A stretch of DNA of 64,000 bases, taken from positions 310,001 to 374,000 of the forward strand of contig NZ_RQJO01000011.1 of the NCBI RefSeq assembly GCF_003858635.1, read 5' to 3'. The position numbers and the translations under genes are program-made. The number at the start of each line of letters is the position of its first letter. The stretch's first letter is position 1. Below the pieces are notes generated by a model, which saw only the letters and a program-made list of their open reading frames with translations, did no database searches and was not told where the DNA came from. This stretch comes from Larkinella rosea (GTDB lineage: Bacteria; Bacteroidota; Bacteroidia; Cytophagales; Spirosomataceae). Shown in pieces: positions 2,585 through 58,554 of this stretch.

Positions 2585-4939
2585 ATGCTGAGCAACTACC
2601 TGAAAATCGCCCTGCGCAACCTCTGGCGCAACAAGTTTTATACCGGTTTGAACGTCGGTGGACTGGCCGTCGGGCTGGCGGCCTGCCTGCTGATGGCCCT
2701 GTATGTCGATCACGAGTTTTCGTACGACGGTTTTCACGCCAACGCTGACCGGATTGTGCGCGTGACAACCGAAATGAAAACGCCGGAATCGCCCCTGTCG
2801 ATTGCGTCCAGCCCGCTGCCCCTGGCGACGGTTTTGAAACAGGATTACCCGGAAGTCGAAACGGCGGTGCGGTTATTGCCTTCGTCGGCGGTGGTGCGGC
2901 ATCAGGGCAAGTTGCTGAAAGAACCGGATGTCTATTTTGCGGACAAAGAGGTCTTTGCGGTTTTTTCGTATTCGTTTCTGGCGGGCAACCCGGCTTCGGC
3001 CCTGGCTAACCCCAACAGCGCGGTTGTTGGGGAGCGGTTTGCCAGAAAGTATTTCGGACAAACCGATGTGCTGGGAAAAACCGTCGAACTCAACAAACAG
3101 CTGTACCAGATCACGGGCGTTGTCGCCGACGCGCCCAGCAATACCGACTTGCCCGTTACGGCCCTGTTGTCCAAAACGTTTGCCGGCACTCGGTCGTGGG
3201 TGGAAGACGATTTTCCGTGTTATACCTATGTACTTTTCCGGGACGAACCCAATCTGGCGGTTTTCAGTAAAAAGCTGGCGCAGATCGCGGAAAAATACGC
3301 CAATCCCGAACTGAAGAAAATGGGCGCGGAAGGCTATTCACTCGTTTTTCCGGTCGAGCGGCTGCGCGACGTGCATTACAGCACGGGCAAGCTAGCCGAC
3401 ACGCCGAAAGGGAATAAACAATACGGCTATCTCTTCGCGTTTCTGTCGGTTTTTGTGCTGGCCATTGCGCTGCTGAATTACATCAATCTGCTGACGGCCA
3501 AGGCCGCCGAACGGGCGAAAGAGGTCGGAATTCGGAAAGCCAACGGTGCCCAGCGCGGCCAGTTGATCCGGCAGTTTTTGTTTGAATCGTTTTTGCTGAG
3601 CGGTTTATCGGTTGGTTTGGCTGTGGTGCTGGTGTGCTCCGCCATTCCTTTTTTCAATGAACTGTTACAAATCCGGTTGTCGATCGTCTTGTCAGAAGCT
3701 GTTCCATTGACCGGTTTTACGTGGGTCCTGATCACGCTGGCGGGTGGCTTGTATCCGGCTTTTGTATTATCCAATTACCGCCCGGTCGAGGTATTGAAAG
3801 GGCGCATGGGTAGCTTCGGAAAAGGAGCGTGGCTGCGGAAGTCGGTCATTGTTTTTCAGTTTATGCTGGCCGTGGGCATGATAACGGGCGTTCTGGTGAT
3901 TCGTCGGCAAATGAACTTTATGCAACATCACGATCTGGGTTTCCGAAAAGAAGGCATTCTGAGCGTCTATTTGCCGGAGGATTCAACGGCGCGGGTGGCG
4001 GCCCCGGCGTTTATAACCAGTCTGAAAAACCGCAGCGAAGTGGGCGAGGTCACGATGGGCTCCGGTTTGCAGCCGAGCGGTTTATTACCGATGGCTTCCA
4101 CCACCATCCGGACCAACGGGAAAAAGCGGGAAATCATGAGCAATTACCAGTTCATCGACGACCAGTTTCTGCCGTTGCTGAACATTAAACTCAAAACCGG
4201 TCGGAACCTGTCGGCCAATATCAAATCCGACTTGAACAGCGGTTTTATCGTCAATGAAGCATTTGTCAAAATGGCGGGCTGGAAAGACGGGATCGGGCAG
4301 ACGATCGACGGGTTTAACCACAAGGGCAAAGTGGTGGGCGTGGTTCGGAATTTTCATTACCGCTCGCTGCACAATCTGGTGGAACCGCTCGTGCTGGTTT
4401 ACAACACCTTTCCTGCCAGCAGCATTATGCTGAAGGTAAAAGCCGATGATTTGCCAGCCGTGAAAGCAGTTTGGGAGCGGCACTACCCGCTCTATCCGTT
4501 CGATTACGCGTTTCTGGAGCAATCCTTTGAAAGCCAATACCAGAAAGATCGGACGTTGGCAACAATTTTTAATGGTTTCACGTCATTAACCATTCTGGTC
4601 TCTTGTTTAGGACTATTCGGTTTCGTTACCTTTACAACCGGGCAACGAACAAAAGAGATCGGCATACGCAAGATTTTAGGTGCATCGGTCGTTAACGTGG
4701 TGTTATTGCTCTCCAAAGACTTTCTCAAGTTAGTTATAATTGCCTTTGTCATTGCTGCTCCGGTTGCCTGGTTTGCGCTGGATCACTGGTTGCAGGATTT
4801 CGCGTATCGTGTTGGATTGGAAGGTTGGATTTTCGCCCTGGCAGGCAGTCTGGTGATCCTGATTGCGTTGCTGACCGTGTCGTTCCAGTCCATCAAAGCC
4901 GCGTTGGTAAATCCGGTGAATACATTGAAACATTCCTGA
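2585..4939 (+). CDS. MacB/FtsX-type ABC transporter permease, copy 2
   Basis: A 784-residue two-half permease like copy 1, starting MLSNYLKIALRNLWRNKFY. TM1 is about 20-42 (GLAVGLAACLLMALYV). The first FtsX bundle is divergent: NYINLLTAKAAERAKEVG near residue 300 replaces the usual INFMNL(A/S)TA, and the following motif reads IRKANGAQRGQL. The second bundle has the standard QRTKEIGIRKILGAS near 698. The tail is NPVNTLKHS rather than the NPVKSLRSE of almost all neighbours. From about 4555 to 4770 the DNA is visibly more AT-rich than the rest of the gene, which may mark a converted segment. It belongs to the mixed group with copies 3, 8, 14, 15 and 17. Substrate is unknown. Confidence 0.94.
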   Translation: MLSNYLKIALRNLWRNKFYTGLNVGGLAVGLAACLLMALYVDHEFSYDGFHANADRIVRVTTEMKTPESPLSIASSPLPLATVLKQDYPEVETAVRLLPSSAVVRHQGKLLKEPDVYFADKEVFAVFSYSFLAGNPASALANPNSAVVGERFARKYFGQTDVLGKTVELNKQLYQITGVVADAPSNTDLPVTALLSKTFAGTRSWVEDDFPCYTYVLFRDEPNLAVFSKKLAQIAEKYANPELKKMGAEGYSLVFPVERLRDVHYSTGKLADTPKGNKQYGYLFAFLSVFVLAIALLNYINLLTAKAAERAKEVGIRKANGAQRGQLIRQFLFESFLLSGLSVGLAVVLVCSAIPFFNELLQIRLSIVLSEAVPLTGFTWVLITLAGGLYPAFVLSNYRPVEVLKGRMGSFGKGAWLRKSVIVFQFMLAVGMITGVLVIRRQMNFMQHHDLGFRKEGILSVYLPEDSTARVAAPAFITSLKNRSEVGEVTMGSGLQPSGLLPMASTTIRTNGKKREIMSNYQFIDDQFLPLLNIKLKTGRNLSANIKSDLNSGFIVNEAFVKMAGWKDGIGQTIDGFNHKGKVVGVVRNFHYRSLHNLVEPLVLVYNTFPASSIMLKVKADDLPAVKAVWERHYPLYPFDYAFLEQSFESQYQKDRTLATIFNGFTSLTILVSCLGLFGFVTFTTGQRTKEIGIRKILGASVVNVVLLLSKDFLKLVIIAFVIAAPVAWFALDHWLQDFAYRVGLEGWIFALAGSLVILIALLTVSFQSIKAALVNPVNTLKHS

Positions 4940-5024
4940 ACCGGGATTACGCGGATTCAAGGATTAAGAGGATTGGTTACCCCTCTTTTATTCCTCTCCC
5001 TGAATCCGCGTAATCCCAGTTCAG
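4936..5024. repeat. Inverted repeat, GGATTACGCGGATT family, locus a
   Basis: The left arm overlaps the stop codon of copy 2 (CTGAACCGGGATTACGCGG...). The right arm (...CCGCGTAATCCCAGTTCAG) ends at 5024, 27 bases before the next gene. Both arms carry TTCA/TGAA where other loci have TTAA/TTAA, so the substitution is paired. The loop is about 41 bases. One of eight loci of this family in the window. Confidence 0.85.
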
Positions 5025-6314: not shown

Positions 6315-6325
6315 CGGTCTGAATG

Positions 6326-6401
6326 GCTTTGGGGGTGTCCCTTGCGGACTGAGATTAGACCCTTCGAACCTGACACAGTTGAGACTGTCGTAGGGAAAAG
6401 C
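6326..6401 (+). promoter_or_regulatory. TPP riboswitch (THI element)
   Basis: Thiamin-pyrophosphate aptamer recognised by its conserved pieces in order: GGGGGTGTCC, the THI-box CTGAGA at 6349-6354, GAACCTGA at 6366-6373 and CGTAGGGAA at 6389-6397. GCTTT (6326-6330) can pair with AAAGC (6397-6401) to close the P1 helix. It leads directly into thiM and so should lower expression of the salvage operon when TPP is abundant. I cannot decide from sequence alone whether it acts on transcription or translation. No clear terminator follows, and the start region lies close downstream. Confidence 0.93.
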
Positions 6402-6495
6402 TGGAGAGAACACCGCTTCTTTCTGTTTGATTTCCGTACCGGAAACGCACCCACGCGTCCATTCAACTTTTTCTCACGTCAAAAACCGGTACGTT

Positions 6496-13477: not shown

Positions 13478-13569
13478 AATGAACAATTAACAATTAATAA
13501 TGAAATTGTCCGGGCACGATGCTTGTCTTAGAGGATGTTACTTTCATTATTCATTGTTAATTGTTCATT
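13478..13569. repeat. AT-rich inverted repeat (AATGAACAATTAAC family)
   Basis: A 28-base arm AATGAACAATTAACAATTAA... (13478-13505) is matched by its reverse complement at 13542-13569 with one mismatch. The loop is 36 bases. Relatives lie at 20239-20331, 33731-33793 and 36083-36154, always in intergenic gaps. It is likely an mRNA hairpin or a small palindromic mobile repeat. Confidence 0.85.
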
Positions 13570-16038: not shown

Positions 16039-16153
16039 AGCATAGGGCATGGGGCAGAGGGGTTTGGGCAACGGGTCGTTCCAGTTCAGGCACTTACTTT
16101 TCTCTCCATGTCCTTCTCCTTTGCTTTAAACCCTCTGCCCTCTGCTTTTAAAT
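16039..16153. repeat. Imperfect inverted repeat after permease copy 4
   Basis: A left arm around AAAAGCATAGGGCATGGGGC is matched imperfectly by a right arm around AAACCCTCTGCCCTCTGCTT. It is G-rich on one side and C-rich on the other, about 115 bases in all. The sequence is distinct from the other repeat families but sits in the same position, between stop and next start. Confidence 0.5.
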
Positions 16154-17164: not shown

Positions 17165-17169
17165 CCGTC

Positions 17170-17742
17170 TTGAACCGCCGGGCGGCCCCGTGGGATTACA
17201 CGGATTGAAGGATTAAGAGGATACCGATTAAAGAAATTTGTTATTAAACAGTCGGCGGAATTCCAGGCTTTTCGAACCAAAATTAATAAGTAATCCCACC
17301 CGCAGTCGATAAGCCTCCAAGTAATTGATTGCCTGAGCCATGTGTACATTTTCGAGAAGAATAATTGCTTTTAATTCAACGGATACCACGTTTTGAATTA
17401 AGAAATCTACCCGACGCGTGCCTATTTTTTGACCTTTATAGAAAATAGACATTTCAACTTCCCGTTCAAATTCAACACCGGAGGTTTCCAACTCAATGGC
17501 TAATGCTCGTTGATAGATAACTTCCTGAAATCCATTTCCAAGCTGCCGGTGAACTTCCATCGCACAACCAATCACTCGACCCGTCAAGTCTTTATATTGA
17601 TTATCAGGATAGTGGGATTGATTCATTCCAAAAGCAATGATTTCCCTTTAGAAGTAAAACCATCCGTTTTGTCACTCAATCTCAGAAAATCTTTTGCTCA
17701 TTCGCTCTTCTTAATCCTTTAATCCGCGTAATCCCAGTTCAA
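17170..17742. mobile_element. Inverted-repeat-bounded unit carrying a GxxExxY gene (repeat locus b)
   Basis: The left arm (17170-17222) and right arm (17707-17742) are the GGATTACGCGGATT-family repeat seen elsewhere with short loops. Here they enclose the 132-residue GxxExxY gene (17228-17626) and little else. The left arm has a 14-15 base GC-rich insert (CGCCGGGCGGCCCCG) between GAAC and TGGGATTAC, also found at 41501-41515 and, in the right arm, near 32574-32587. The layout suggests a small mobile unit whose gene-less derivatives are the other loci. I see no target-site duplication, and mobility is inference. Confidence 0.5.
17228..17626 (-). CDS. GxxExxY-family protein, PD-(D/E)XK nuclease-like
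   Basis: A 132-residue protein of the GxxExxY family, named for the motif seen here as GFQEVIY (Gly32, Glu35, Tyr38). RRVDFLIQ (Asp74) and SVELKAI (Glu84, Lys86) give the order E...D...ExK expected of a PD-(D/E)XK nuclease core. Activity in vivo is not established for the family. It ends with a conserved LLINFGSKSLEFRRL tail. The coding DNA is more AT-rich than the flanking permease genes. It lies wholly inside a repeat-bounded unit on the strand opposite the permeases, which suggests acquisition as cargo or as the repeat's own enzyme. Confidence 0.85.
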   Translation of the reverse strand: MNQSHYPDNQYKDLTGRVIGCAMEVHRQLGNGFQEVIYQRALAIELETSGVEFEREVEMSIFYKGQKIGTRRVDFLIQNVVSVELKAIILLENVHMAQAINYLEAYRLRVGLLINFGSKSLEFRRLFNNKFL

Positions 17743-17751
17743 AAAACTATC

Positions 17752-17789
17752 TGTCCGCAAATGGCCGGAAAACCGTCCGTTTGCGGACA
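17752..17789 (+). promoter_or_regulatory. Paired operator candidates upstream of permease copy 5
   Basis: TGTCCGCAAATGGCCGG (17752-17768) and CCGTCCGTTTGCGGACA (17773-17789) are near-perfect inverted copies of one site and together form a large palindrome. The second is the same site as 10907-10923 and is related to 35607-35623. The position relative to the promoter-like block (32 bases) matches copy 3. Confidence 0.6.
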
Positions 17790-17821
17790 TTTTATTTGAT
17801 CAACGGGAATGTAAGATATTG

Positions 17822-17894: not shown

Positions 17895-20243
17895 ATGCTA
17901 CGAAATTACATCAAGATTGCCTGGCGGAGCCTGCTCAAAAACCGTCTTTACTCGTTTATCAACATTTTCGGGCTGGCGCTGGGCATGTCGTGCAGCCTGC
18001 TGATTGGCCTGTGGGTGAACGACGAGCTCAGCTATGACCGGTTTTTGCCGCATCTCGATGACATCTACTTTGTGCGGACGAACAGTGTCAGCGAAGGCAA
18101 AACGTACACCGGCACGCTGACGCCGGGTCCGGTGGTTGGCGCCCTGAAGCGCGATGTTCCGGAAGTTCAGTACGCGACCAAAGTGCAGTTCCCCGAAGAA
18201 AAACTCGTCAAGGTGGGCGAAAAATCGACGAAGGAAAAGGGTTTTTTCGCGACCAAAGACTTCTTTCTGGTATTCGATTTTCCGGCGATTGCGGGCAGCC
18301 CGCTGATGGCGCATTCCAAGCCGGATCAGATCATCATTACCCGCAAGATCGCCGAAAAATTCTTCGGAACGACCCACGCTGTGGGCAAGCGGTTGCATTT
18401 CGACAACACGACGTATTACACCGTGGGAGCGGTTCTCGAAGACATTCCGAGCAATTCGACGGTGCGGTTCGACTGGCTGATCAATTACGATGTACAGGAA
18501 CAGGACTGGAAAAAAACCTGGGGGAATTTTTCGTTCCTGACCTACGTGCGACTGGATAATAAGGCGACACCGGCCAAGGCCGAAGCCAACATGAAAACGA
18601 TTTTCCGGCGGAATACCGACTGGAAAGAAGCGCCGACGCTGATTCTCCAGCCCATGAAGGAGGTATATCTCTACGCTGACTACGAAGATGGGAAAGCAGT
18701 GGGCGGACGCATCGAGTACGTCCGGATTTTTGCGCTGGTGGCCGTGTTCATTCTCCTGATTGCCTGCGTGAATTTCATGAACCTGGCAACGGCCCGTTCG
18801 GCCGTGCGGGCGAAGGAAGTAGGGGTTCGGAAGGTGGTTGGGGCGCTGCGCTCGTCGCTGATCGGGCAATTTATCAGTGAGTCGGTGCTGACGAGCCTGC
18901 TGGCGGTTTTGCTGGCGGTGGCATTTGTGGTGCTGGTGCTGCCCACATTCAATGCGGTTTTTGCCAAACAGCTCGTCCTGGATCTACGGAACCCGATGCT
19001 GTGGGCAGGTATGCTGGTGCTGGTGCTGATCACCGGTTTCGTATCGGGCAGTTATCCAGCCCTGTTTCTTTCGTCGCTCCAGCCGATCCGCATTCTGAAA
19101 GGAACCCTGAAATTTGGCGTTGGGGCGGCTCTTTTCCGCCGGGCGCTGGTTATTTTTCAATTTACGTTGTCCATTTTTCTGATCATCGGCATGCTGGCCG
19201 TGGAATACCAGATGGACTATATCCGCACCATTAACCTGGGGCTCGATCGCGAAAACGTGGTGTATGTGCCGCTGGAAAACGAAACGTACAAGCGGATGGA
19301 AACCTTTCGGCAGGAATTGATCCGGTCGCCTTTCATTGCATCGGCATCGGCAAGTATGAGCCTGCCCATGAACATTGAAGCGACTTCCGGGGATCTGACC
19401 TGGCCCGGTAAAAAGCCGGATCAGAACTCCAACGTGTCGACCATGTCGGTGGGGTACGATTTCCTGAAAACCATGAACATCAGGCTGGCCGACGGGCGGG
19501 ATTTTTCGAGCAACCGGAAAGCCGATTCGGCCTCGTACATCATCAACGAAGCCGCTGCCAAAATGATGGGCATGAAAAACCCGGTGGGGCAACAGGTGGG
19601 GTTCTGGATGGGCAAAGGACCGATCATTGGCGTCATGAAAGACTTCCACCTCCAATCGCTGCACAGCCCGATTACGCCCCTGGTGCTGACGCTGATTCCG
19701 GTGAATACGAGCTACCTGCTGGTGCGCCCCGAAAAAGGCAAAACCGCCGAAGCCATCGCCGAACTGGAACGGGCGACGAAAGAGTTCAACCCCGATTATC
19801 CATTTGAATACCATTTTCTGGACGATGCCTACGAGCGCATGTACCGCAGTGAGCAGCAGGTCAATACGCTGATCAACTACTTCGGAACGCTGGCGATCCT
19901 GATCTCATGCCTGGGTCTGTTTGCGCTGGCGGCTTTTACGGCGGAGCAGCGGAAAAAGGAAATTGGCGTCCGGAAAGTGCTGGGCGCGTCGGTGGGTAGT
20001 CTGGTTGCGCTGACCTCGAAAGACTTCATGAAACTGGTGATGGTGGCAATGGCGCTGGCGTCTCCGCTGGCGTGGTGGGCGGTTTCGAAATGGCTCGAGA
20101 CGTTTCAGTACAGCGTCCAATTATCCTGGTGGCTCTTCGTAACGGCGGGTCTACTGGCCTGCGTAATTGCCTTTTTAACGGTTAGTTATCAGTCGGTCAA
20201 AGCCGCTTTAACGAATCCAGTGACCTCACTTCGGTCGGAATGA
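17895..20243 (+). CDS. MacB/FtsX-type ABC transporter permease, copy 5
   Basis: A 782-residue two-half permease, MLRNYIKIAWRSLLKNRLY. Subgroup B (with copies 9, 10 and 13): TM1 GMSCSLLIGLWVNDELSYD about 30-48, a GTLTPGPVVGALKRDVPE stretch in the first periplasmic domain, and VNFMNLATARSAVRAKEVG near 293-311 followed by VRKVVGALRSSL. The second bundle reads EQRKKEIGVRKVLGAS near 683, with Lys where most paralogs have Thr. It ends NPVTSLRSE. A strong candidate for its own promoter, because the shared operator sites and 42-base block precede it. An AT-rich repeat overlaps its stop codon. Confidence 0.95.
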   Translation: MLRNYIKIAWRSLLKNRLYSFINIFGLALGMSCSLLIGLWVNDELSYDRFLPHLDDIYFVRTNSVSEGKTYTGTLTPGPVVGALKRDVPEVQYATKVQFPEEKLVKVGEKSTKEKGFFATKDFFLVFDFPAIAGSPLMAHSKPDQIIITRKIAEKFFGTTHAVGKRLHFDNTTYYTVGAVLEDIPSNSTVRFDWLINYDVQEQDWKKTWGNFSFLTYVRLDNKATPAKAEANMKTIFRRNTDWKEAPTLILQPMKEVYLYADYEDGKAVGGRIEYVRIFALVAVFILLIACVNFMNLATARSAVRAKEVGVRKVVGALRSSLIGQFISESVLTSLLAVLLAVAFVVLVLPTFNAVFAKQLVLDLRNPMLWAGMLVLVLITGFVSGSYPALFLSSLQPIRILKGTLKFGVGAALFRRALVIFQFTLSIFLIIGMLAVEYQMDYIRTINLGLDRENVVYVPLENETYKRMETFRQELIRSPFIASASASMSLPMNIEATSGDLTWPGKKPDQNSNVSTMSVGYDFLKTMNIRLADGRDFSSNRKADSASYIINEAAAKMMGMKNPVGQQVGFWMGKGPIIGVMKDFHLQSLHSPITPLVLTLIPVNTSYLLVRPEKGKTAEAIAELERATKEFNPDYPFEYHFLDDAYERMYRSEQQVNTLINYFGTLAILISCLGLFALAAFTAEQRKKEIGVRKVLGASVGSLVALTSKDFMKLVMVAMALASPLAWWAVSKWLETFQYSVQLSWWLFVTAGLLACVIAFLTVSYQSVKAALTNPVTSLRSE

Positions 20244-20331
20244 ACAATGAACAAGTAATAATTAATAACGGGCAATTAATCGTGACTGTCAGCAGGTTAT
20301 CCTGTTCATTGTTCATTATTAATTGTTCATT
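20239..20331. repeat. AT-rich inverted repeat overlapping the stop of permease copy 5
   Basis: The left arm AATGAACAATGAACAAGTAA... includes the TGA stop codon of copy 5. The right arm (...GTTCATTATTAATTGTTCATT) ends 12 bases before the ATG of copy 6. Same family as 13478-13569, with several indels between the arms. Confidence 0.8.
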
Positions 20332-20343
20332 CTTACAACAACA

Positions 20344-26136: not shown

Positions 26137-26233
26137 TGAACTGGGATTACGCGGATTAAAGGATTAAGAGGATATAAAAATAAGATTGCGGCAGCCATCC
26201 TCTTAATCCTTTAATCCGCGTAATCCCAGTTCA
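26137..26233. repeat. Perfect 37-bp inverted repeat, GGATTACGCGGATT family, locus c
   Basis: The arms 26137-26173 and 26197-26233 are exact reverse complements over 37 bases around a 23-base AT-rich loop. The left arm begins 3 bases after the stop of copy 7 and the right arm ends 14 bases before the start of copy 8. This is the cleanest copy of the family and serves as its reference. Confidence 0.95.
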
Positions 26234-32395: not shown

Positions 32396-32595
32396 CTGAA
32401 CCGGGATTACGCGGATTAAAGGATTAACAGGATGTTTGTGGGGTCGCTTCTTTGCGTTTATATCTTTTAAATGTCTTGATCGAACCGCTGACACAGCTTA
32501 GAGTATGCGGATTAAAAAGGAATAAGTTGGAGTATTTTTACATCCTCTTAATCCTTTAATCCGCGTAATCCCACGGGGCCGCCCGGCAGTTCAAG
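32396..32595. repeat. Inverted repeat, GGATTACGCGGATT family, locus d
   Basis: The left arm 32396-32433 begins 2 bases after the stop of copy 9. The right arm 32542-32595 carries the GC-rich insert (CGGGGCCGCCCGGC) and ends exactly at the base before the ATG of the next gene. The 108-base spacer contains a further degraded arm-like piece (GCGGATTAAAAAGGAATAAG). Confidence 0.85.
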
Positions 32596-33723: not shown

Positions 33724-33730
33724 AATTTAA

Positions 33731-33793
33731 AATGAACAATTAATAATGAATAGTGTAAAGTGTGAGTCAGCTATTTATTATTAATTGTTCATT
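33731..33793. repeat. AT-rich inverted repeat between convergent genes
   Basis: The arms AATGAACAATTAATAATGAA... (33731-33753) and ...TTATTAATTGTTCATT (33771-33793) match over 23 bases with one mismatch around a 17-base loop. It separates the convergent mannonate dehydratase-like and membrane-protein genes, so it can serve as a terminator hairpin for both. Confidence 0.85.
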
Positions 33794-33794
33794 G

Positions 33795-34265
33795 TTAATT
33801 ATCCATCCGAACCGCAATCGCGGTTGCAATGCTGGCAATGAGCAGGTTAAAGTGCGTGTTTGATAAACCGGGCATTTCGTAGGCCAGGAAAAACTCGTCG
33901 GAGAGAAGGAAAGCCGCCCATAAGCCAATCAAAGCGGTCAGGGCCCGAACGGCAGCGGTTTTATGACCAGGCTTTTGCCGCATGTCGGCGACAAACGCTT
34001 GCCAGAGCAGAATACTACCGGCGGTTTGCCAGCCGAGAACCCCCGCGTACAGCAACCCGGCCAGCCAGCCCGGCGAATGATAAATGCTGACCACCTTCTG
34101 AATCAGGTCGAAATTCCCCGACACGAAAACCGCATCCGACGATAAAATGCCCAGCGCCTTCAGCGCGTCGGCGGTGTTACTCACCAGAACCAGCGAGAGA
34201 TACAGTGCCCAAAAAAGCAGTAAAACCGACGGAATGCGACGGTTTATTACTTGTTCATTTTTCAT
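33795..34265 (-). CDS. Small integral membrane protein
   Basis: A 156-residue protein with about four predicted membrane helices: SVLLLFWALYLSLVLVS (13-29), LLYAGVLGWQTAGSILLWQAF (about 71-91), ALTALIGLWAAFLLSDEFF (about 109-127) and FNLLIASIATAIAV near the end. The arrangement is reminiscent of DUF2165-type membrane proteins, but I cannot confirm that. Its first codons (MKNEQVIN) are read from DNA of the AT-rich repeat family (ATGAACAAGTAATAA), so the start is repeat-derived. It lies 10 bases downstream of the esterase gene and is probably cotranscribed with it. Confidence 0.65.
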   Translation of the reverse strand: MKNEQVINRRIPSVLLLFWALYLSLVLVSNTADALKALGILSSDAVFVSGNFDLIQKVVSIYHSPGWLAGLLYAGVLGWQTAGSILLWQAFVADMRQKPGHKTAAVRALTALIGLWAAFLLSDEFFLAYEMPGLSNTHFNLLIASIATAIAVRMDN

Positions 34266-41494: not shown

Positions 41495-41631
41495 CTTGAA
41501 CCGCCGGGCGGCCCCGTGGGATTACACGGATTAAAAGATTAACTGGGATGGCTACTGCTTTTTTTATTTGTAATCCGAAGAATAGCCTCTAATCCTCTTA
41601 ATCCTTTAATCCGCGTAATCCCAGTTCAGAC
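41495..41631. repeat. Inverted repeat, GGATTACGCGGATT family, locus e
   Basis: The left arm 41495-41549 carries the GC-rich insert (CGCCGGGCGGCCCCG). The right arm 41592-41631 is the standard form and ends one base before the ATG of copy 12. Part of the loop (AATCCGAAGAATA) is shared with locus g (ATTCCGAAGAATA near 55681-55693), so whole units, not just arms, are related. Confidence 0.9.
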
Positions 41632-41632
41632 A

Positions 41633-44278
41633 ATGTCTCCGCCCCGCTTCGCCGACCGCATCCTGCAATTCTTCTGCTCTCCCGACCAGCTGGAGGAGAT
41701 TCAGGGAGACATGCACGAGGAGTTTGCCTGGCAGCTTCGGCGGGTGGGCGAACGGCGGGCGCGGTGGCGGTGTTGGTGGGATGTGCTGGGATTTGTGCTG
41801 TCGTTTGCGCTTAAAAGAAGATCAACTGAGTATTCAACAACGCATCTAACGAACCCGATTATGATCCGGAATTACTTCAAAATCGCTTTCCGAAATCTGG
41901 CAAAAAACAAAGGTTTTTCGGCCATCAACATTGGCGGTTTGGCCGTTGGCATGGCGGTGGCTATGCTGAATGGGCTGTGGATCTGGGACGAACTCTCGTT
42001 CGATACCTACCACCAGAATTATGACCGCATAGCCCAGGTCATGACGAAGGAAACGGAGGAAGGTACTACGTGGACAAATAATTCGATGCCGTATCCGCTG
42101 TCGACTGAACTCAAAACCACTTACCGAAACGAGTTCGTGCGCATCGTGAATGGCTCCTGGATCAGTGAATACATTCTGTCGGCGGGCGACAACAAAATAG
42201 CCCGGAAAGGCCAATTTCTGGACGAGGAAGCACCGGACATGCTGAGCCTGAAGATGATCTATGGTTCACGGGCCGGGTTGCACGACCCCAATTCCATTCT
42301 GCTTTCGGCATCCACCGCCGAGGCTCTTTTTGGAAAAACCGACCCCACGAACCGGGCGATGCGGCTCAATAACAAAATCGATGTGAAAGTGACCGGTGTT
42401 TACGAGGATCTACCCCTGAATACGCAGTTCAACGAGATCAAATTTGTATCACCGTTTGAATTATGGGTCAACCAGAATCCGTGGATCAAGGAGCGGGCAC
42501 TCCACGACTGGAGCAACCACTTTCTGCGGATTTACGCCGAAATAAAGCCGGGCGACACGTTTGATGCCGTTTCGGCCCGGATTAAAGACGCTGAGCTGAA
42601 AAACCTCGCCAATTTCAAGGAACAGGCTGCCCGCACTCCCCAGGCTTTTCTGTTTCCGATGAGCCAGTGGCACCTGCATAAATTCAAACGGGGCATGCCC
42701 GATCCGGAGCCCCTGCGAATGGTCTGGATGGTGGGCGTTATCGGCGGTTTTGTCTTGCTGCTGGCCTGCATCAATTTCATGAATCTCTCGACCGCCCGTT
42801 CCGAGAAACGCGCCAAAGAAGTCGGCATTCGGAAGGCAGTGGGTTCAGTCCGCACCCAGTTGATCAACCAGTTTTTCAGTGAATCCTTTCTGGTAACGAC
42901 GCTGGCCCTGCTGGTGGCACTGGTTCTGGTGACGCTGTCACTGGGCTGGTTCAACAACCTGGCCGCCAAGCAAATGACCATGCCCTGGCGTAATCCGTGG
43001 TTCTGGGCCGCCAGCCTGGGTTTTATCGTTCTGACCGGTTTACTGGCGGGCAGTTACCCGGCTTTGTACCTGTCGTCGTTCCAGCCCGTCAAAGTCCTGA
43101 AAGGGACCTTTCGGGTGGGGCGGTTTGCGTCTGTTCCCCGCAAAGTACTGGTGGTGGTGCAATTTACGGTTTCCATCGCGCTGATTATCAGCACAATTAT
43201 AGTATATCGACAGGTTCAGTACGCGAAAAACCGTCCGGTGGGCTACACGCGGGAAGGGTTGATCACGATGGCGATGAAGTCGAATGATTTTGACGGGAAA
43301 TACGAAGTGCTGCGGGCGGAATTGAAAAACACGGGTGCAGTGGCCGAAATCTCCCAGTCGATGGGGAAAATGACCGAGGTGGTTTCCGGCAACGGCGGTT
43401 TCGATTGGAAAGGCCGCGATCCCCGGCGGGGTGAAGATAATTTCGGAACGCTGGCGGTGAGCCTCAACCACGGAAAAACCGTTGGCTGGCAGTTTGTGCA
43501 GGGACGTGATTTTTCGAGTAAACTGGCTTCGGATTCGGCCGGAATGGTCATCAACGAATCGGCCGCCCGCGACATGGGGCTGAAAAATCCGGTGGGTGAA
43601 ACCGTCCGCTGGACGTGGTCGCGGACGAACAAAGTCTTAACATACCGGATTTTAGGCGTGGTCAGGGACATGGTCATGCAGTCGCCCTATGACCCGATTC
43701 AACCCGCCATTTTCTATTTGAAGGGACACAACGGTGGTGTCAGCAACATCAACATCAAGCTGAATCCGGCGGTCAGCATCCGGGATGCGCTGCCCAAAGT
43801 TGAAGCGGTTTTCAAAAAAATCGTTCCGCTGGTTCCCTTCGAGTACCAGTTTGTCGATCAGGAATATGCGCTCAAATTCGCAGCTGAAGAACGAGTTGGC
43901 AAACTGGCGACCTTCTTTGCGGTGCTGGCCATTTTCATCAGTTGCCTGGGCCTGTTCGGACTGGCGTCGTTCGTGGCCGAGCAGCGGACGAAAGAGATTG
44001 GCATTCGTAAGGTTTTAGGCGCATCGGTTACCAATCTGTGGCGGATGTTATCGAAAGACTTTGTGGTACTGGTGGTGATTGCCTGCCTGATCGCCGGGCC
44101 ACTGGCCGGGTATTTCATGGATCAGTGGTTACAGAAATACACGTACCGCGACGACATTGCCTGGTGGATATTCGCCGTGTCAGGCGCCGGTGCGCTGGTG
44201 CTGACGCTGCTGACGGTGAGTTACCAAGCCATCAAAGCCGCGTTGGTGAATCCGGTGAAGAGTTTAAAATCGGAGTAA
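41633..44278 (+). CDS. Prefix-bearing MacB/FtsX-type ABC permease, copy 12
   Basis: An 881-residue protein. Prefix 1-76 begins MSPPRFADRILQFF, the only copy with Ser rather than Lys at position 2 (or Asn-Pro in copy 15), then EEIQGDMHEEFAWQLRRVGE. Junction Met77 (MIRNYFKIAFRN). The body is subgroup C: GMAVAMLNGLWIWDELSFD (Asn replaces the usual Ile), FPMSQWHLHKFKRG before TM2, INFMNLSTARSEKRAKEVG near 379-397 followed by IRKAVGSVRTQLINQFFSES. The second bundle reads EQRTKEIGIRKVLGAS near 783, then VTNLWRMLSKDF. It ends YQAIKAALVNPVKSLKSE. Prefix DNA matches copy 13 almost base for base up to the junction. Confidence 0.95.
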   Translation: MSPPRFADRILQFFCSPDQLEEIQGDMHEEFAWQLRRVGERRARWRCWWDVLGFVLSFALKRRSTEYSTTHLTNPIMIRNYFKIAFRNLAKNKGFSAINIGGLAVGMAVAMLNGLWIWDELSFDTYHQNYDRIAQVMTKETEEGTTWTNNSMPYPLSTELKTTYRNEFVRIVNGSWISEYILSAGDNKIARKGQFLDEEAPDMLSLKMIYGSRAGLHDPNSILLSASTAEALFGKTDPTNRAMRLNNKIDVKVTGVYEDLPLNTQFNEIKFVSPFELWVNQNPWIKERALHDWSNHFLRIYAEIKPGDTFDAVSARIKDAELKNLANFKEQAARTPQAFLFPMSQWHLHKFKRGMPDPEPLRMVWMVGVIGGFVLLLACINFMNLSTARSEKRAKEVGIRKAVGSVRTQLINQFFSESFLVTTLALLVALVLVTLSLGWFNNLAAKQMTMPWRNPWFWAASLGFIVLTGLLAGSYPALYLSSFQPVKVLKGTFRVGRFASVPRKVLVVVQFTVSIALIISTIIVYRQVQYAKNRPVGYTREGLITMAMKSNDFDGKYEVLRAELKNTGAVAEISQSMGKMTEVVSGNGGFDWKGRDPRRGEDNFGTLAVSLNHGKTVGWQFVQGRDFSSKLASDSAGMVINESAARDMGLKNPVGETVRWTWSRTNKVLTYRILGVVRDMVMQSPYDPIQPAIFYLKGHNGGVSNINIKLNPAVSIRDALPKVEAVFKKIVPLVPFEYQFVDQEYALKFAAEERVGKLATFFAVLAIFISCLGLFGLASFVAEQRTKEIGIRKVLGASVTNLWRMLSKDFVVLVVIACLIAGPLAGYFMDQWLQKYTYRDDIAWWIFAVSGAGALVLTLLTVSYQAIKAALVNPVKSLKSE

Positions 44279-44355
44279 AGGAGGAGGGGAGAAAAGGAGG
44301 AAGAAAATAGAAAACCGTCTCCTTTCAGCCTCTCTTCCCTTCCTCCTTTCATCCC
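44279..44355. repeat. Purine/pyrimidine inverted repeat between copies 12 and 13
   Basis: The arm AGGAGGGGAGAAAAGGAGG and its counterpart CTCTCTTCCCTTCCTCC flank AAAACCGTCTCCTTTC. It is nearly the same as the spacer before copy 11, including the final TTTCATCCCTATTTT before the ATG. Confidence 0.75.
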
Positions 44356-52865: not shown

Positions 52866-53009
52866 CTGAACTGGGATTACGCGGATTAAAGGATTAAGAG
52901 GATAAAGTTGCCAACAATTAATCCTGGTAAATCTTTCTGTCCTGTGTACTCCGAGATGCATTGTCAAGAATATCCTCTTAATCCTTTAATCCGCGTAATC
53001 CCAGTTCAG
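52866..53009. repeat. Inverted repeat, GGATTACGCGGATT family, locus f
   Basis: Left arm 52866-52903 and right arm 52972-53009 match over 38 bases. The last base of the right arm is the base before the ATG of copy 16. The 68-base loop has no recognisable gene. Confidence 0.93.
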
Positions 53010-55621: not shown

Positions 55622-55733
55622 GTCTTGAACTGGGATTACGCGGATTAAAGGATTAACTGGGATTTCCTGTTTTGCTTTTAATTCCGAAGAATATCCTCTT
55701 AATCCTTTAATCCGCGTAATCCCAGTTCAAGAC
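55622..55733. repeat. Inverted repeat, GGATTACGCGGATT family, locus g
   Basis: The left arm begins GTCTTGAACTGGGATTACG (55622) and the right arm ends CGTAATCCCAGTTCAAGAC (55733), 3 bases before the ATG of copy 17. Left arms of e and g both read ...GATTAACTGGGAT where others read ...GATTAAGAGGAT. An extra CTGAAC just upstream may be the remnant of another arm. Confidence 0.92.
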
Positions 55734-55736
55734 GAT

Positions 55737-58370
55737 ATGAAACCACCCCGCTTCGCTGACCAACTGCTGAAATTCTTCTGCTCGCCCGACCACCTGGAGG
55801 AGGTGCTGGGTGATTTGCACGAGGAGTTTGCGTACCAGCGTCGGCGCATCGGCGAAAACCGGGCGCGTTGGCGGTATTGGTGGGATGTGGTTGGTTTTAT
55901 CTTCTCCTTTGCGCTGAGAAGGAAGTCCCAGAATAATTCGACAACAACGATAACGAACCCGATTATGATCCGAAATTACTTCAAAATCGCCTGGCGGAAT
56001 TTACTTCGCTACCGACTCAACAGCACGCTGACCATTGCCGGATTGGCGCTGGGTCTGGCCTGCGGTTTACTCATCATTCTTCACGTCAGGGAAGAGTTGC
56101 GCTACGATAAAGGCTTCGCGAAAGCCGACCGGATTTACCGGATCAATTCAGAGAATATTGGGGAGAAAACCCGGCGCTGGGCTGCTACATCGCCCATCCT
56201 CGGAATTGAAATGAAGCGGGAGATTCCGGCGATACAAACCGTGATCCGGTTTCATCGACCGTACCCGGACCGGGTATTCAGCTACGCGCCGTCGGGCGGA
56301 GAATCGAAGCAATTTGAGGAAAAAACCGGTTTTTACGCGGATTCGACGGTGGTCGATGTGTTTGACCTGCCGTTTGTCAAGGGAGATTCACGGACAGCTC
56401 TGAAGCAGCAGGACGCCATTGTGCTGACGGAAACGATGGCCAAAAAATACTTTGGCGACGCGGAGCCGCTTGGCAAAATCATTCAGGACGATCTGGACAA
56501 ACGACCGCTGACGGTGACGGGCGTCATCCGGGATTTTGGGTTTCCGACGCACCTGAAATTCGACTACCTCATTTCGATGTCAACCTATTATAAGTACGCC
56601 GACAAAGGATCGTTGGAAAGCCGGACCTGGTCGGGATTTTACAATTATGTATTGCTGAACGCGAATGCGTCGCGTCCGGCGGTGGAATCGAAAATTCCGG
56701 TGTTCATGGTGAAATTTTACGAAGTGAACGGCGAAAACCGGAAGGATATTCTGACCACCCGGAAAACGCTCCTTCAGCCGATTACGGATATTCACCTGCA
56801 CTCGAAACTGGAAAAGGAAATGAGCCCGAACAGCGACATTCTGTACGTCTACGTGTTTTCGGTGGCGGCTTTGTTTATCCTGCTGGTGGCGTCGGTCAAC
56901 TTCATCAACATGGCGACGGCGCAGGCCTTTAACCGAATGAAAGAAGTGGGCGTCCGGAAAGTGCTGGGCGCCCGCAAAGGACAACTGGTCAACCAGTTTC
57001 TGGGCGAATCGTTCCTGCTGACGCTGGGGGGCGCGTTGCTGGCGCTGCTGCTGTTCTGGCAGGCGATTCCGTTTTACAACGATCTGACGGCAAAGGAGCT
57101 TCGTTTTGGGCAGCTGTTTACCGTATCGAATGTCGTCATTATGTTTGGGCTGGCCGGACTGATCAGCCTGATTGCGGGTCTGTATCCCGCGTGGTTCATC
57201 TCGAATTTTGAACCGGTTACGTCGTTGAAAGGGAAAAAAAGTACGGTTTCGTCGGTTACGCTGGTACGCAAAGGCTTGATTGTCTTTCAGTTTGCGGTTT
57301 CCGTTTTCATGATTTTCAGCACGATCGTGGTGTACCGCCAAATGCAGTTTTTCCAGAATAAAAAGTTGGGCTTCGATCAGGAACAGGTCGTGGCCGTTAA
57401 ACTTTACGGACAAAGCATGCACGAAAAAGCGAATACGATTCAGAGTGAGTTGCTGCAAAATTCGGCGATCACGGATGTCGCCCGGATTTCGGTTTTGCCC
57501 GGCGACCGGTTTAGTACCGATATGCTTATCCCGGTAGGAAAAGCCGACGATGCGAGCCAGATGCGGTTTATGTGGGCCGACGAACACATGCTGCCGGTGC
57601 TGAAAATTGGCCTGAAAACCGGTCGCAATTTCGTGCAGCGAAACGTACGTTCTCACTTCGCTTATATTCTGAACGAAGCCGCCGTGAAAGCGCTTAAGTT
57701 GCAGTCGCCCATCGGGCAGAAAATGGTTTCACTGGGCGATACGGGCGAGATTGTGGGCGTTGTCAATGATTTCCATTTTGCTTCCCTTCATAGCGCCGTC
57801 GAACCGCTGGTGATTGTTCAGCACCCCGGTCAGGCCAATTACTTTTTGTTAAAAATCAAAGGGAAAAACCTGCCCGAAACGGTGCAGTTTGCCCGCAACA
57901 CGCTGGCGCGGGTTTCGCCCGAAAGCCTGTTCAGTTACACCTTTCTCGACGAAAAACTGGCCCGGCTCTACGATTCGGAGCAACGCGTGGGCAATGTGTT
58001 GAAAGTCTTTGCGGTTTTTGCTATTTTCATCTCCTGCCTGGGGTTATTCGGCCTGTCGGCCTACGCGGCTCAACTGCGGACCAAGGAGGTCGGCATTCGG
58101 AAAGTGCTGGGTGCCACGGTTTCGGGGGTTGTCGTGCTGCTTTCCAAAGATTTCCTGCGGCTGGTGCTCATGGCCACCCTGCTGGCTTCTCCGCTGGCCG
58201 GATGGGCGATGAGCCGCTGGCTGGAAGGCTTTGCGTACGCCATCGATCTGGAATGGTGGATGTTTGCGCTGACGGCCTTTCTGGCGGTTTTCGTCGCCGT
58301 GCTGACCATCAGTTTCCAGAGCATCAAAGCCGCGCTGATGAATCCCGTGAAGAGTTTGAAAAGCGAGTAG
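55737..58370 (+). CDS. Prefix-bearing MacB/FtsX-type ABC permease, copy 17
   Basis: An 877-residue protein and the last with a prefix (MKPPRFADQLLKFFCSPDHL, EEVLGDLHEEFAYQRRRIG, junction Met77 MIRNYFKIAWRN). The body is the most divergent of the block: TM1 GLALGLACGLLIILHVREE, the first periplasmic domain starting LRYDKGFAKADRIYRINS, then VNFINMATAQAFNRMKEVG near 385-403 followed by VRKVLGARKGQLVNQFLGES. The second bundle reads QLRTKEVGIRKVLGAT near 777, with Leu for Gln. It ends NPVKSLKSE. Mixed subgroup. Followed by a double copy of the GGATTACGCGGATT repeat. Confidence 0.95.
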   Translation: MKPPRFADQLLKFFCSPDHLEEVLGDLHEEFAYQRRRIGENRARWRYWWDVVGFIFSFALRRKSQNNSTTTITNPIMIRNYFKIAWRNLLRYRLNSTLTIAGLALGLACGLLIILHVREELRYDKGFAKADRIYRINSENIGEKTRRWAATSPILGIEMKREIPAIQTVIRFHRPYPDRVFSYAPSGGESKQFEEKTGFYADSTVVDVFDLPFVKGDSRTALKQQDAIVLTETMAKKYFGDAEPLGKIIQDDLDKRPLTVTGVIRDFGFPTHLKFDYLISMSTYYKYADKGSLESRTWSGFYNYVLLNANASRPAVESKIPVFMVKFYEVNGENRKDILTTRKTLLQPITDIHLHSKLEKEMSPNSDILYVYVFSVAALFILLVASVNFINMATAQAFNRMKEVGVRKVLGARKGQLVNQFLGESFLLTLGGALLALLLFWQAIPFYNDLTAKELRFGQLFTVSNVVIMFGLAGLISLIAGLYPAWFISNFEPVTSLKGKKSTVSSVTLVRKGLIVFQFAVSVFMIFSTIVVYRQMQFFQNKKLGFDQEQVVAVKLYGQSMHEKANTIQSELLQNSAITDVARISVLPGDRFSTDMLIPVGKADDASQMRFMWADEHMLPVLKIGLKTGRNFVQRNVRSHFAYILNEAAVKALKLQSPIGQKMVSLGDTGEIVGVVNDFHFASLHSAVEPLVIVQHPGQANYFLLKIKGKNLPETVQFARNTLARVSPESLFSYTFLDEKLARLYDSEQRVGNVLKVFAVFAIFISCLGLFGLSAYAAQLRTKEVGIRKVLGATVSGVVVLLSKDFLRLVLMATLLASPLAGWAMSRWLEGFAYAIDLEWWMFALTAFLAVFVAVLTISFQSIKAALMNPVKSLKSE

Positions 58371-58512
58371 TCTTGAACTCGGATTACGCGGATTAAAGGA
58401 TTAAGAGGATTAGTCTGAACTCGGATTACGCAGATTAAAGGATTAACTAGGATTGATTGGAAATATATTGAATCCTCTTAATCCTTTAATCCGCGTAATC
58501 CGAGTTCAAGAC
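58371..58512. repeat. Compound inverted repeat, GGATTACGCGGATT family, locus h
   Basis: Two left arms (58371-58410 and 58414-58453) face one right arm (58472-58512), and a further CAGTTCAAG remnant lies at 58518-58526. Both left arms read AACTCGGATTACG and the right arm CGTAATCCGAGTT: the G-to-C change relative to the other loci is compensated on the other arm. It begins directly at the stop of copy 17. Confidence 0.9.
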
Positions 58513-58554
58513 AACCTCAGTTCAAGAAACGTTAATCATTCAACCAACCCGAAC

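Follow-up and report, generated by a model that had tools for sequence, protein, structure and literature searches.

The window, by which we mean the whole stretch of 64,000 nucleotides of Larkinella rosea DNA analysed here, carries a small gene of the GxxExxY family between a PA14/OmpA gene and a MacB/FtsX-type permease gene. The gene lies antisense to both neighbours and, as a preliminary description of this DNA had stated, it is enclosed by an inverted repeat, the arm of which reads GGATT-ACAC-GGATT-GAA-GGATT-AAGA-GGA (Table 1). Profile searches assign its product to PF13366 (E 2.8e-39; 134.5 bits against a curated cut-off of 22) and to TIGR04256 (E 3.3e-40; 137.1 bits against 35). The residues that mark a GxxExxY or PDDEXK_3 protein are all present (G32, E35, Y38, D74, E84, and K86), including the four that had been read as a PD-(D/E)XK core (E35, D74, E84, and K86). 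At E ≤ 0.001 Pfam gives PF13366 alone for this protein, and no known transposase domain is found in it by Pfam and TIGR04256-type profile searches. Rfam likewise finds no known structured RNA at the element, and its sole match in the window at gathering scores is a TPP riboswitch elsewhere (6321–6413). Upstream of the permease gene lies a further inverted repeat, TGTCCGCAAATGG...CCGTCCGTTTGCGGACA at 17752–17790, which is recognisable in all 8 sister genomes read, with its right half almost unchanged, and which is possibly an operator or leader. The genome of the window holds two distinct GxxExxY genes; the second, the sole other one found, is also situated inside an inverted repeat, of a different sequence and with flanking units such as TTTCGCGGAGTTGAGCGGAG.

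Table 1. The GxxExxY element and the gene-less hairpins of its family (positions in the window)
Feature	Position	Strand	Basis or remark
Whole insertion, gene and both arms	17165..17751		587 bp; absent at the orthologous junction of 7 sister genomes
Left outer end CCGTCTTGAACCGCCGGGCGGCCCCG	17165..17190	+	common to the gene-less hairpins at 41517 and 32403
Left inverted arm, units GGATTACAC-GGATTGAA-GGATTAAGA-GGA	17191..17221	+	read from the sequence, arm search
GxxExxY gene, predicted PD-(D/E)XK nuclease of RecB/Cas4 type, 132 aa	17228..17626	-	profiles, alignment, model
Right inverted arm	17706..17736	-	90% complementary to the left arm
Right outer end GTTCAAAAAACTATC, as far as the stem in front of the ABC permease gene	17737..17751		read from the sequence, junction comparison
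Gene-less hairpin, family of the window element	4936..5024		arm search, end comparison
Gene-less hairpin, family of the window element	26137..26233		arm search, end comparison
Gene-less hairpin, family of the window element, extended GCCGGGCGGCCCCG end	32403..32572		arm search, end comparison
Gene-less hairpin, family of the window element, extended GCCGGGCGGCCCCG end	41517..41623		arm search, end comparison
Gene-less hairpin, family of the window element	52866..53009		arm search, end comparison
Gene-less hairpin, family of the window element, loop with a 13-nt run of the gene	55622..55733		arm search, loop comparison
Gene-less hairpin, family of the window element, extra arm copy	58367..58515		arm search, end comparison

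The seven gene-less loci of the same repeat that had been described from the window do exist (Table 1). They have the same arms as the gene-bearing element, with 23–104 nt between them, and at the level of the whole genome the core GGATTACGCGGATTAAAGGATT is found in 73 copies when up to 3 mismatches are allowed, whereas the reversed control is not found at all. Over its first 52 bp the gene-bearing element is identical to the hairpin at 41517 in 50 of 52 positions, an odd GCCGGGCGGCCCCG stretch included, and its bases 4–58 match the end of the hairpin at 32403 in 52 of 55. Gene-bearing and gene-less copies thus share their ends and belong to one family. One hairpin loop (55657–55698) has a run of 13 nt, TTGCTTTTAATTC, in common with the GxxExxY gene, and 4 of 2000 shuffled versions of the loop reach an equal score; the run might be a remnant of the gene, which would be a weak hint of descent. 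The remaining six loops in the window bear no resemblance to the gene in the same comparison.

Empty sites in relatives, for which the preliminary description had asked, were found. The junction of the element is kept in seven of eight same-genus genomes (G071, G100, G043, G082, G058, G091, and G108; in G082 solely the end of the OmpA gene aligns, and G016 is without the OmpA gene there), and all seven are empty, with 5–30 bp between the aligned flanks against 587 bp in the window. By parsimony, the gene and both arms would have entered jointly in the lineage of the window, as a recent insertion. No target-site duplication is obvious at the empty-site junctions of the sister genomes, and the junctions themselves vary between species.

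The association of GxxExxY genes with inverted repeats is by no means confined to this genus. The family is found in many phyla by a scan of GTDB species, and in the host family 88 of 121 genomes have 1–9 copies of the gene. We aligned the upstream flank of each gene with the reverse complement of its downstream flank and treated intervals of equal length elsewhere in the same loci as controls. Repeats scoring above 28 flank 124 of 190 GxxExxY loci against 22 of 3118 control intervals, in a sample that is neither independent nor unbiased because it has many orthologous loci, counts one gene under two entries (L060 and L208), and draws on a GTDB scan with a single conserved peptide pattern, in which 80 of at least 538 relatives were kept. 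By subset, the repeats are seen in 51 of 77 named cross-phylum loci, 72 of 111 host-family loci, and one of two viral contigs, and the other 66 of the 190 loci (score 28 or less) have no clear repeat. The 190 are what is left of 193 loci after three (L067, L122, and L127) were dropped for short flanks. An early host-family sample had given 22 of 32 loci above the 99th percentile of the controls, and a first cross-phylum pass 57 of 78 with enough flank (80 named loci from the GTDB scan and two viral contigs, with L067, L122, L127, and L080 dropped from these 82). Among nine further plasmid and phage loci three exceed the 99th percentile of the controls of that set (33.5), one of them (L383, Gemmatirosa) with a repeat unlike GxxExxY-arm units; some of the others retain decayed but recognisable arm units, and no such units are seen at the phage copy. 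That GxxExxY might be a phage gene was considered and set aside: 41 pattern matches in viral contigs yielded two confirmed relatives, and 50,697 phage records contained a single phage with the gene, present as two records. As a control family we took Uma2, a dispersed PD-(D/E)XK family of the same host family, and none of its 30 loci has such arms at the shared threshold, which was applied because Uma2 provided only eight control intervals of its own.

Each arm is composed of about three or four units, and in 86 of 114 elements an internal period of 9 or 10 fits the arms best. The units can be sorted into an AG type (CACAGAG, CACAAAG, CGCCAAG, CACTAAG, and others) and an AT type (GGATT, ACAGGAT, CGCGGAT, and CACGAAT among them) by counting RAG and RAT triplets in loci scoring at least 24, a rule that gives no decision for 12 of the 149 labelled loci. 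The unit type follows the lineage of the protein. On a FastTree tree of 190 of the 193 proteins (L208 left out), the type changes 7 times over 135 loci, where 1000 shuffles give a mean of 45 and a minimum of 35; in the cross-phylum subset of 48 loci there are 3 changes against a shuffled mean of 16.3 and a minimum of 10. When L208 is again left out, the unit type of a locus can be predicted from the closest protein of another genus in 126 of 136 cases, and within the 16 genomes that hold both types in 38 of 42, so that the base composition of the host is not the cause of the match. One of these 42 is the window copy, the arms of which are undecided by the triplet rule and were set to the AT type by eye from GGATT; the nearest relatives of its protein are of the AT type. 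Part of this covariation of protein and arm could come from joint inheritance. The earlier view that GxxExxY has a repeat as its partner therefore stands in a changed form: the partner is a class of inverted repeats with a 9–10-bp period, the unit of which varies by clade, rather than one particular palindrome.

Gene-less copies tend to accompany a matching gene. We counted ACAGGAT pairs in the 121 host-family genomes with the pattern ACAGGATN{1,4}ACAGGAT, counts that include the own arms of the gene, and the reversed control gave 4 hits in all 121. Six genomes have 13 pairs or more (G055 107, G038 76, G002 55, G106 29, G068 18, and G029 13), and all six carry a GxxExxY gene with ACAGGAT-type arms. 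The correspondence is looser at the low end. Three genomes have a matching gene and few pairs (G088 6, G079 1, and G103 1), two have 7 pairs each with no matching gene seen among the GxxExxY genes inspected (G054 and G067), and four have pairs without any GxxExxY gene (G109 5, G098 3, G008 2, and G090 2). A second and weaker type, CACTAAG, gives 69 hits in 19 genomes, where its reversed control gives 20 hits in 17, and a matching gene was seen in five of the eight genomes with at least 4 hits.

What kind of protein is encoded can be approached from its predicted fold. An AlphaFold2 model of the window protein, built on a 21-row alignment, reaches a pLDDT of 92 and a pTM of 0.85. The best solved match by Foldseek is SSO0001 (4ic1; E 2.7e-4, TM 0.57), which we take to be a Cas4, followed by lambda exonuclease (3slp; E 1.7e-3, TM 0.54), and the overall rmsd is high for most of the chains; weaker E-values are given to MGME1 and AdnAB, and matches to tRNA-splicing endonucleases are weak (E 0.03 or worse). 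By sequence no solved homologue was found, the best hit being a glycosyl hydrolase at E 0.2. In a family alignment of 192 rows (L208 left out here and in the dN/dS counts), D74, E84, and K86 occur in every row and E35 in 190 with 2 gaps, while Q98 and Y102 occur in 187 and H95 in 161; H95, Q98, and Y102 are also invariant in the 21-sequence alignment. This residue set is the one known from RecB-like nucleases, with the motifs named D, ExK, and QxxxY. In 15 pairs chosen among those of at least 75% identity, dN/dS is 0.014–0.080. The protein models as a nuclease of the RecB/Cas4/lambda-exonuclease type, and it has an intact fold under selection, unlike a decaying passenger. A place in a known defence system was also considered and rejected, as PADLOC returned weak Cas4 models alone (E 0.0044 and 0.034).

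The gene itself moves rarely, since among 286 locus pairs in which a flank shows homology, 133 have both flanks in common and equally oriented, some of them across genera (63 AG-AG, 21 AT-AT, 7 AG-AT, and 42 with an unlabelled or undecided locus). Several copies sit at operon junctions: between leuC and a citramalate/isopropylmalate-synthase-like gene (L033), between such a synthase-like gene and leuB (L240), between argD and an acetylornithine carbamoyltransferase gene (L044), between waaA (identified by eye) and rsgA (L203) and, in named records, by radA in Bacteroides and at fabD-fabG in Sphingomonas. The copies L033, L240, L044, and L387 are co-directional inside biosynthetic operons (leu, arg, and fab). 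At the waaA-rsgA locus two genomes (G100 and G058) have a different GxxExxY subtype and different arms than the other five, so that gene and arms differ together. The G058 copy at this locus (L208/L060) is broken by an in-frame TAG while its arms are still highly similar. At another pair of loci (L215 in G002 and L266 in G054) the two flanks appear to be swapped in order with their orientation unchanged. The preliminary description had proposed an autonomous element with miniature relatives. Neither of the two findings that it named as refuting was obtained, as GxxExxY genes elsewhere do have associated inverted repeats and relatives do have empty sites. The shared ends and the empty sites agree with the proposal, but many copies are stable at their loci across species and genera and are under strong purifying selection. 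By analogy with RAYTs, GxxExxY looks more like a gene that stays resident and serves the hairpins in trans.

The comparison with RAYTs can be drawn out further. According to two studies, REPIN-RAYT systems consist of single-copy, vertically inherited genes together with hairpin populations that are richer where the gene is present (PMC8049555, PMC3116915), and REPs are reported to have a GTAG or CGTC tag (PMC3733652). The GxxExxY system likewise appears to have few resident, slow-evolving genes per genome, the recent insertion in the window notwithstanding, and it has many gene-less intergenic hairpins of the same type, built as in REPINs from two inverted repeats that form a hairpin. It also resembles what those sources describe in having repeats beside the gene, a repeat type that follows the gene lineage, and more hairpins with a matching gene (PMC3116915, PMC8049555). 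It differs in that GxxExxY is predicted to be a PD-(D/E)XK nuclease, whereas RAYT is a HuH Y1 (IS200/IS605-like) transposase, so that GxxExxY does not belong to REPIN-RAYT. Moreover, the GxxExxY arms have units of a 9–10-bp period, the gene lies inside the inverted repeat, and the family that occupies a site often changes from one species to another. The best reading, by this analogy, is that nuclease and hairpins may work as a pair in the manner of REPIN-RAYT with an unrelated enzyme.

On balance we lean towards GxxExxY being the enzyme of a widespread nuclease-plus-hairpin system, in which resident genes maintain gene-less hairpins in trans. We infer the binding, the cutting, the copying route, and the mobilisation of the hairpins, and the steps might run as follows. 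The nuclease would recognise its own arms by their unit type, either in duplex form or extruded as a hairpin, and would cut there; host repair or replication would then copy the hairpin, with or without the gene, and the copy would land at a fresh intergenic position or replace a hairpin already present. A genome with one or a few resident genes could in this way keep up a larger population of gene-less hairpins in trans, which is what RAYT transposases do for REPINs. If true, this would give the REPIN-RAYT way of life a second form, unrelated to the first and lacking a recognised transposase. GxxExxY is a curated family without agreed function, and a type-matched DNA repeat offers a substrate to test, while many unexplained intergenic repeats gain a candidate enzyme. 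In the open-access papers searched we found neither a link of GxxExxY to repeats nor a description of such a pair of gene and hairpins.

Other known systems share some of these features. With an insertion sequence and its MITEs, the GxxExxY elements have in common the inverted ends of gene-bearing and gene-less forms and the presence or absence at orthologous sites; unlike them, the protein contains no domain of a known transposase, the junctions show no obvious target-site duplication, and the gene occurs in few copies, often kept at one locus. Cas4, RecB, and lambda exonuclease share with GxxExxY the predicted fold and the residues D, ExK, and QxxxY, but GxxExxY is about 130 aa, is flanked by inverted repeats, and lacks a set of Fe-S cysteines: the window protein has one Cys, none is among the invariant columns of the 21-row alignment, and no column of the 192-row alignment has Cys in more than 86 rows. 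As for neighbouring cas genes, the two genes directly beside the window copy encode PA14/OmpA and MacB/FtsX proteins. Heptamer repeats, such as TAACTGA in Beggiatoaceae and STRR, the short heptamer repeats of cyanobacteria, are comparable as abundant short-period intergenic repeats. TAACTGA differs from the GxxExxY arms in being a 7-nt direct repeat for which the accessible part of its description names no gene, and the author suggests there that a repeat-binding protein might be the mobile element (PMC4679880).

Hairpin sites appear to be more durable than the hairpins that fill them. We surveyed 5 hairpin sites of the window's genome (L004, L006, L008, L023, and L025) in 15 orthologous intervals from three sister genomes (among L351–L366). 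A strong hairpin (score at least 40) stands at the site in 10 of the 15, where the same loci have nine more strong hairpins elsewhere in 53 kb and the genus has a background of some 1 to 2 per 10 kb. Judged by eye, three of these 10 hairpins belong to the same family and 7 to another; at the L008 site the relatives all have the family of the second GxxExxY gene (TTTCGCAGAGTTGAGCGGAG), and these three therefore represent one event. The hairpin sites of the permease array in the window likewise switch, with a prevalent family that by eye differs per species, possibly by gene conversion between paralogous flanks. Two routes would account for this: new elements are drawn to such sites, or one hairpin overwrites another. 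Inserts of other kinds occur as well. At the sites of G071 (contig C6) orthologous to window positions 58367 and 2465 (L198 and L195) there are Uma2 genes (PF05685) of 155–171 aa, and one of these inserts starts, by eye, with a motif like the outer end of the window element. The site of G058 (contig C12) orthologous to 16047 (L200) has a very long imperfect palindrome with a self-alignment score of 427, another kind of repeat, placed between repeats of the 7-nt type.

The main rival to a nuclease that maintains hairpin DNA is that arms and hairpins are RNA or transcription signals (terminators, mRNA stabilisers, or operators), that the nuclease regulates or processes operon mRNAs, and that the repeats spread by gene conversion. 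By a rough longest-ORF method, 103 of 160 genes point the same way as the genes on either side, some of them in leu and arg operons, and a role in mRNA processing would also accommodate the very low dN/dS, the sites kept while the family changes, and the weak fold matches to tRNA-splicing endonucleases. Against this, the window copy is recently inserted and is one of the 18 genes antisense to both neighbours, and among the cross-phylum genes the AG type has no orientation bias (5 co-directional, 5 antisense, and 10 mixed; n = 20), though the AT type is biased (15 of 21 co-directional). In addition, the nearest folds are DNA nucleases and Rfam has nothing at the element. We regard this explanation as unlikely, though to be taken seriously.

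It is more doubtful still that the hairpins are moved by another host enzyme, a RAYT or a transposase, and that GxxExxY is cargo caught between two copies. The hairpins of palindromic interspersed repeats are attributed to RAYTs in one study (PMC3116915), the Uma2 genes at hairpin sites of G071 tell us that genes can occupy such places, and in G058 two complete hairpins flank, by eye, one GxxExxY gene. Cargo would not be expected, however, to have a unit type that tracks its protein tree across phyla and within genomes. Moreover, Uma2, which is dispersed and multi-copy, has no such arms in 30 loci, and the arms of PF05635 genes, described below, have another period.

That the inverted arms make the gene an invertible switch seems very improbable: the element in G002 (L051) is indeed flipped, arms included, relative to its flanks in comparison with G038 (L049) and with G079, but these two inverted pairs go back to a single event, out of 135 locus pairs in which both flanks are conserved, and the arms are probably long enough for ordinary homologous recombination. 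Chance or base composition, by which common hairpins and a short gene would lead one to expect flanking repeats, has a starting point in the 1 to 2 strong hairpins per 10 kb of the host genus and is contradicted by the control intervals and by Uma2, so that we give it next to no credence.

A parallel to the GxxExxY elements is provided by genes of PF05635, the 23S rRNA intervening-sequence protein, a four-helix bundle. These are also small dispersed genes in short-period inverted repeats, which score above 28 in 23 of 30 host-family loci (L145–L174) against 0 of 145 controls. The protein is unrelated to GxxExxY and the period of the arms is a strict 7 nt (autocorrelation of 0.67 at lag 7, and lag 7 best in 17 of 20 elements). 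Two unrelated small proteins with one layout and different periods fit the idea that each protein reads its own repeat. We would tentatively extend this to a general class of short-period palindromes, each with a small protein in its own palindrome and spreading chiefly by overwriting in place, a view we hold to be possible rather than probable. Under such overwriting the nuclease might cut a hairpin and its own family might then be copied into the break, so that sites persist and the family switches; this step we propose with the same reserve. The switching of hairpin families in place and the PF05635 parallel suggest a general rule for the maintenance of bacterial palindromic repeats. The window has further gene-less hairpins with units that are, by eye, of about 7 nt, for example AATGAAC AATTAAC and GGGCATG GGGCAGA (13478–13569, 16047–16145, 20238–20334, 33724–33800, and 44272–44354). 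They are possibly of the PF05635 kind, and at several of their orthologous sites in G071 or G058 another family is found.
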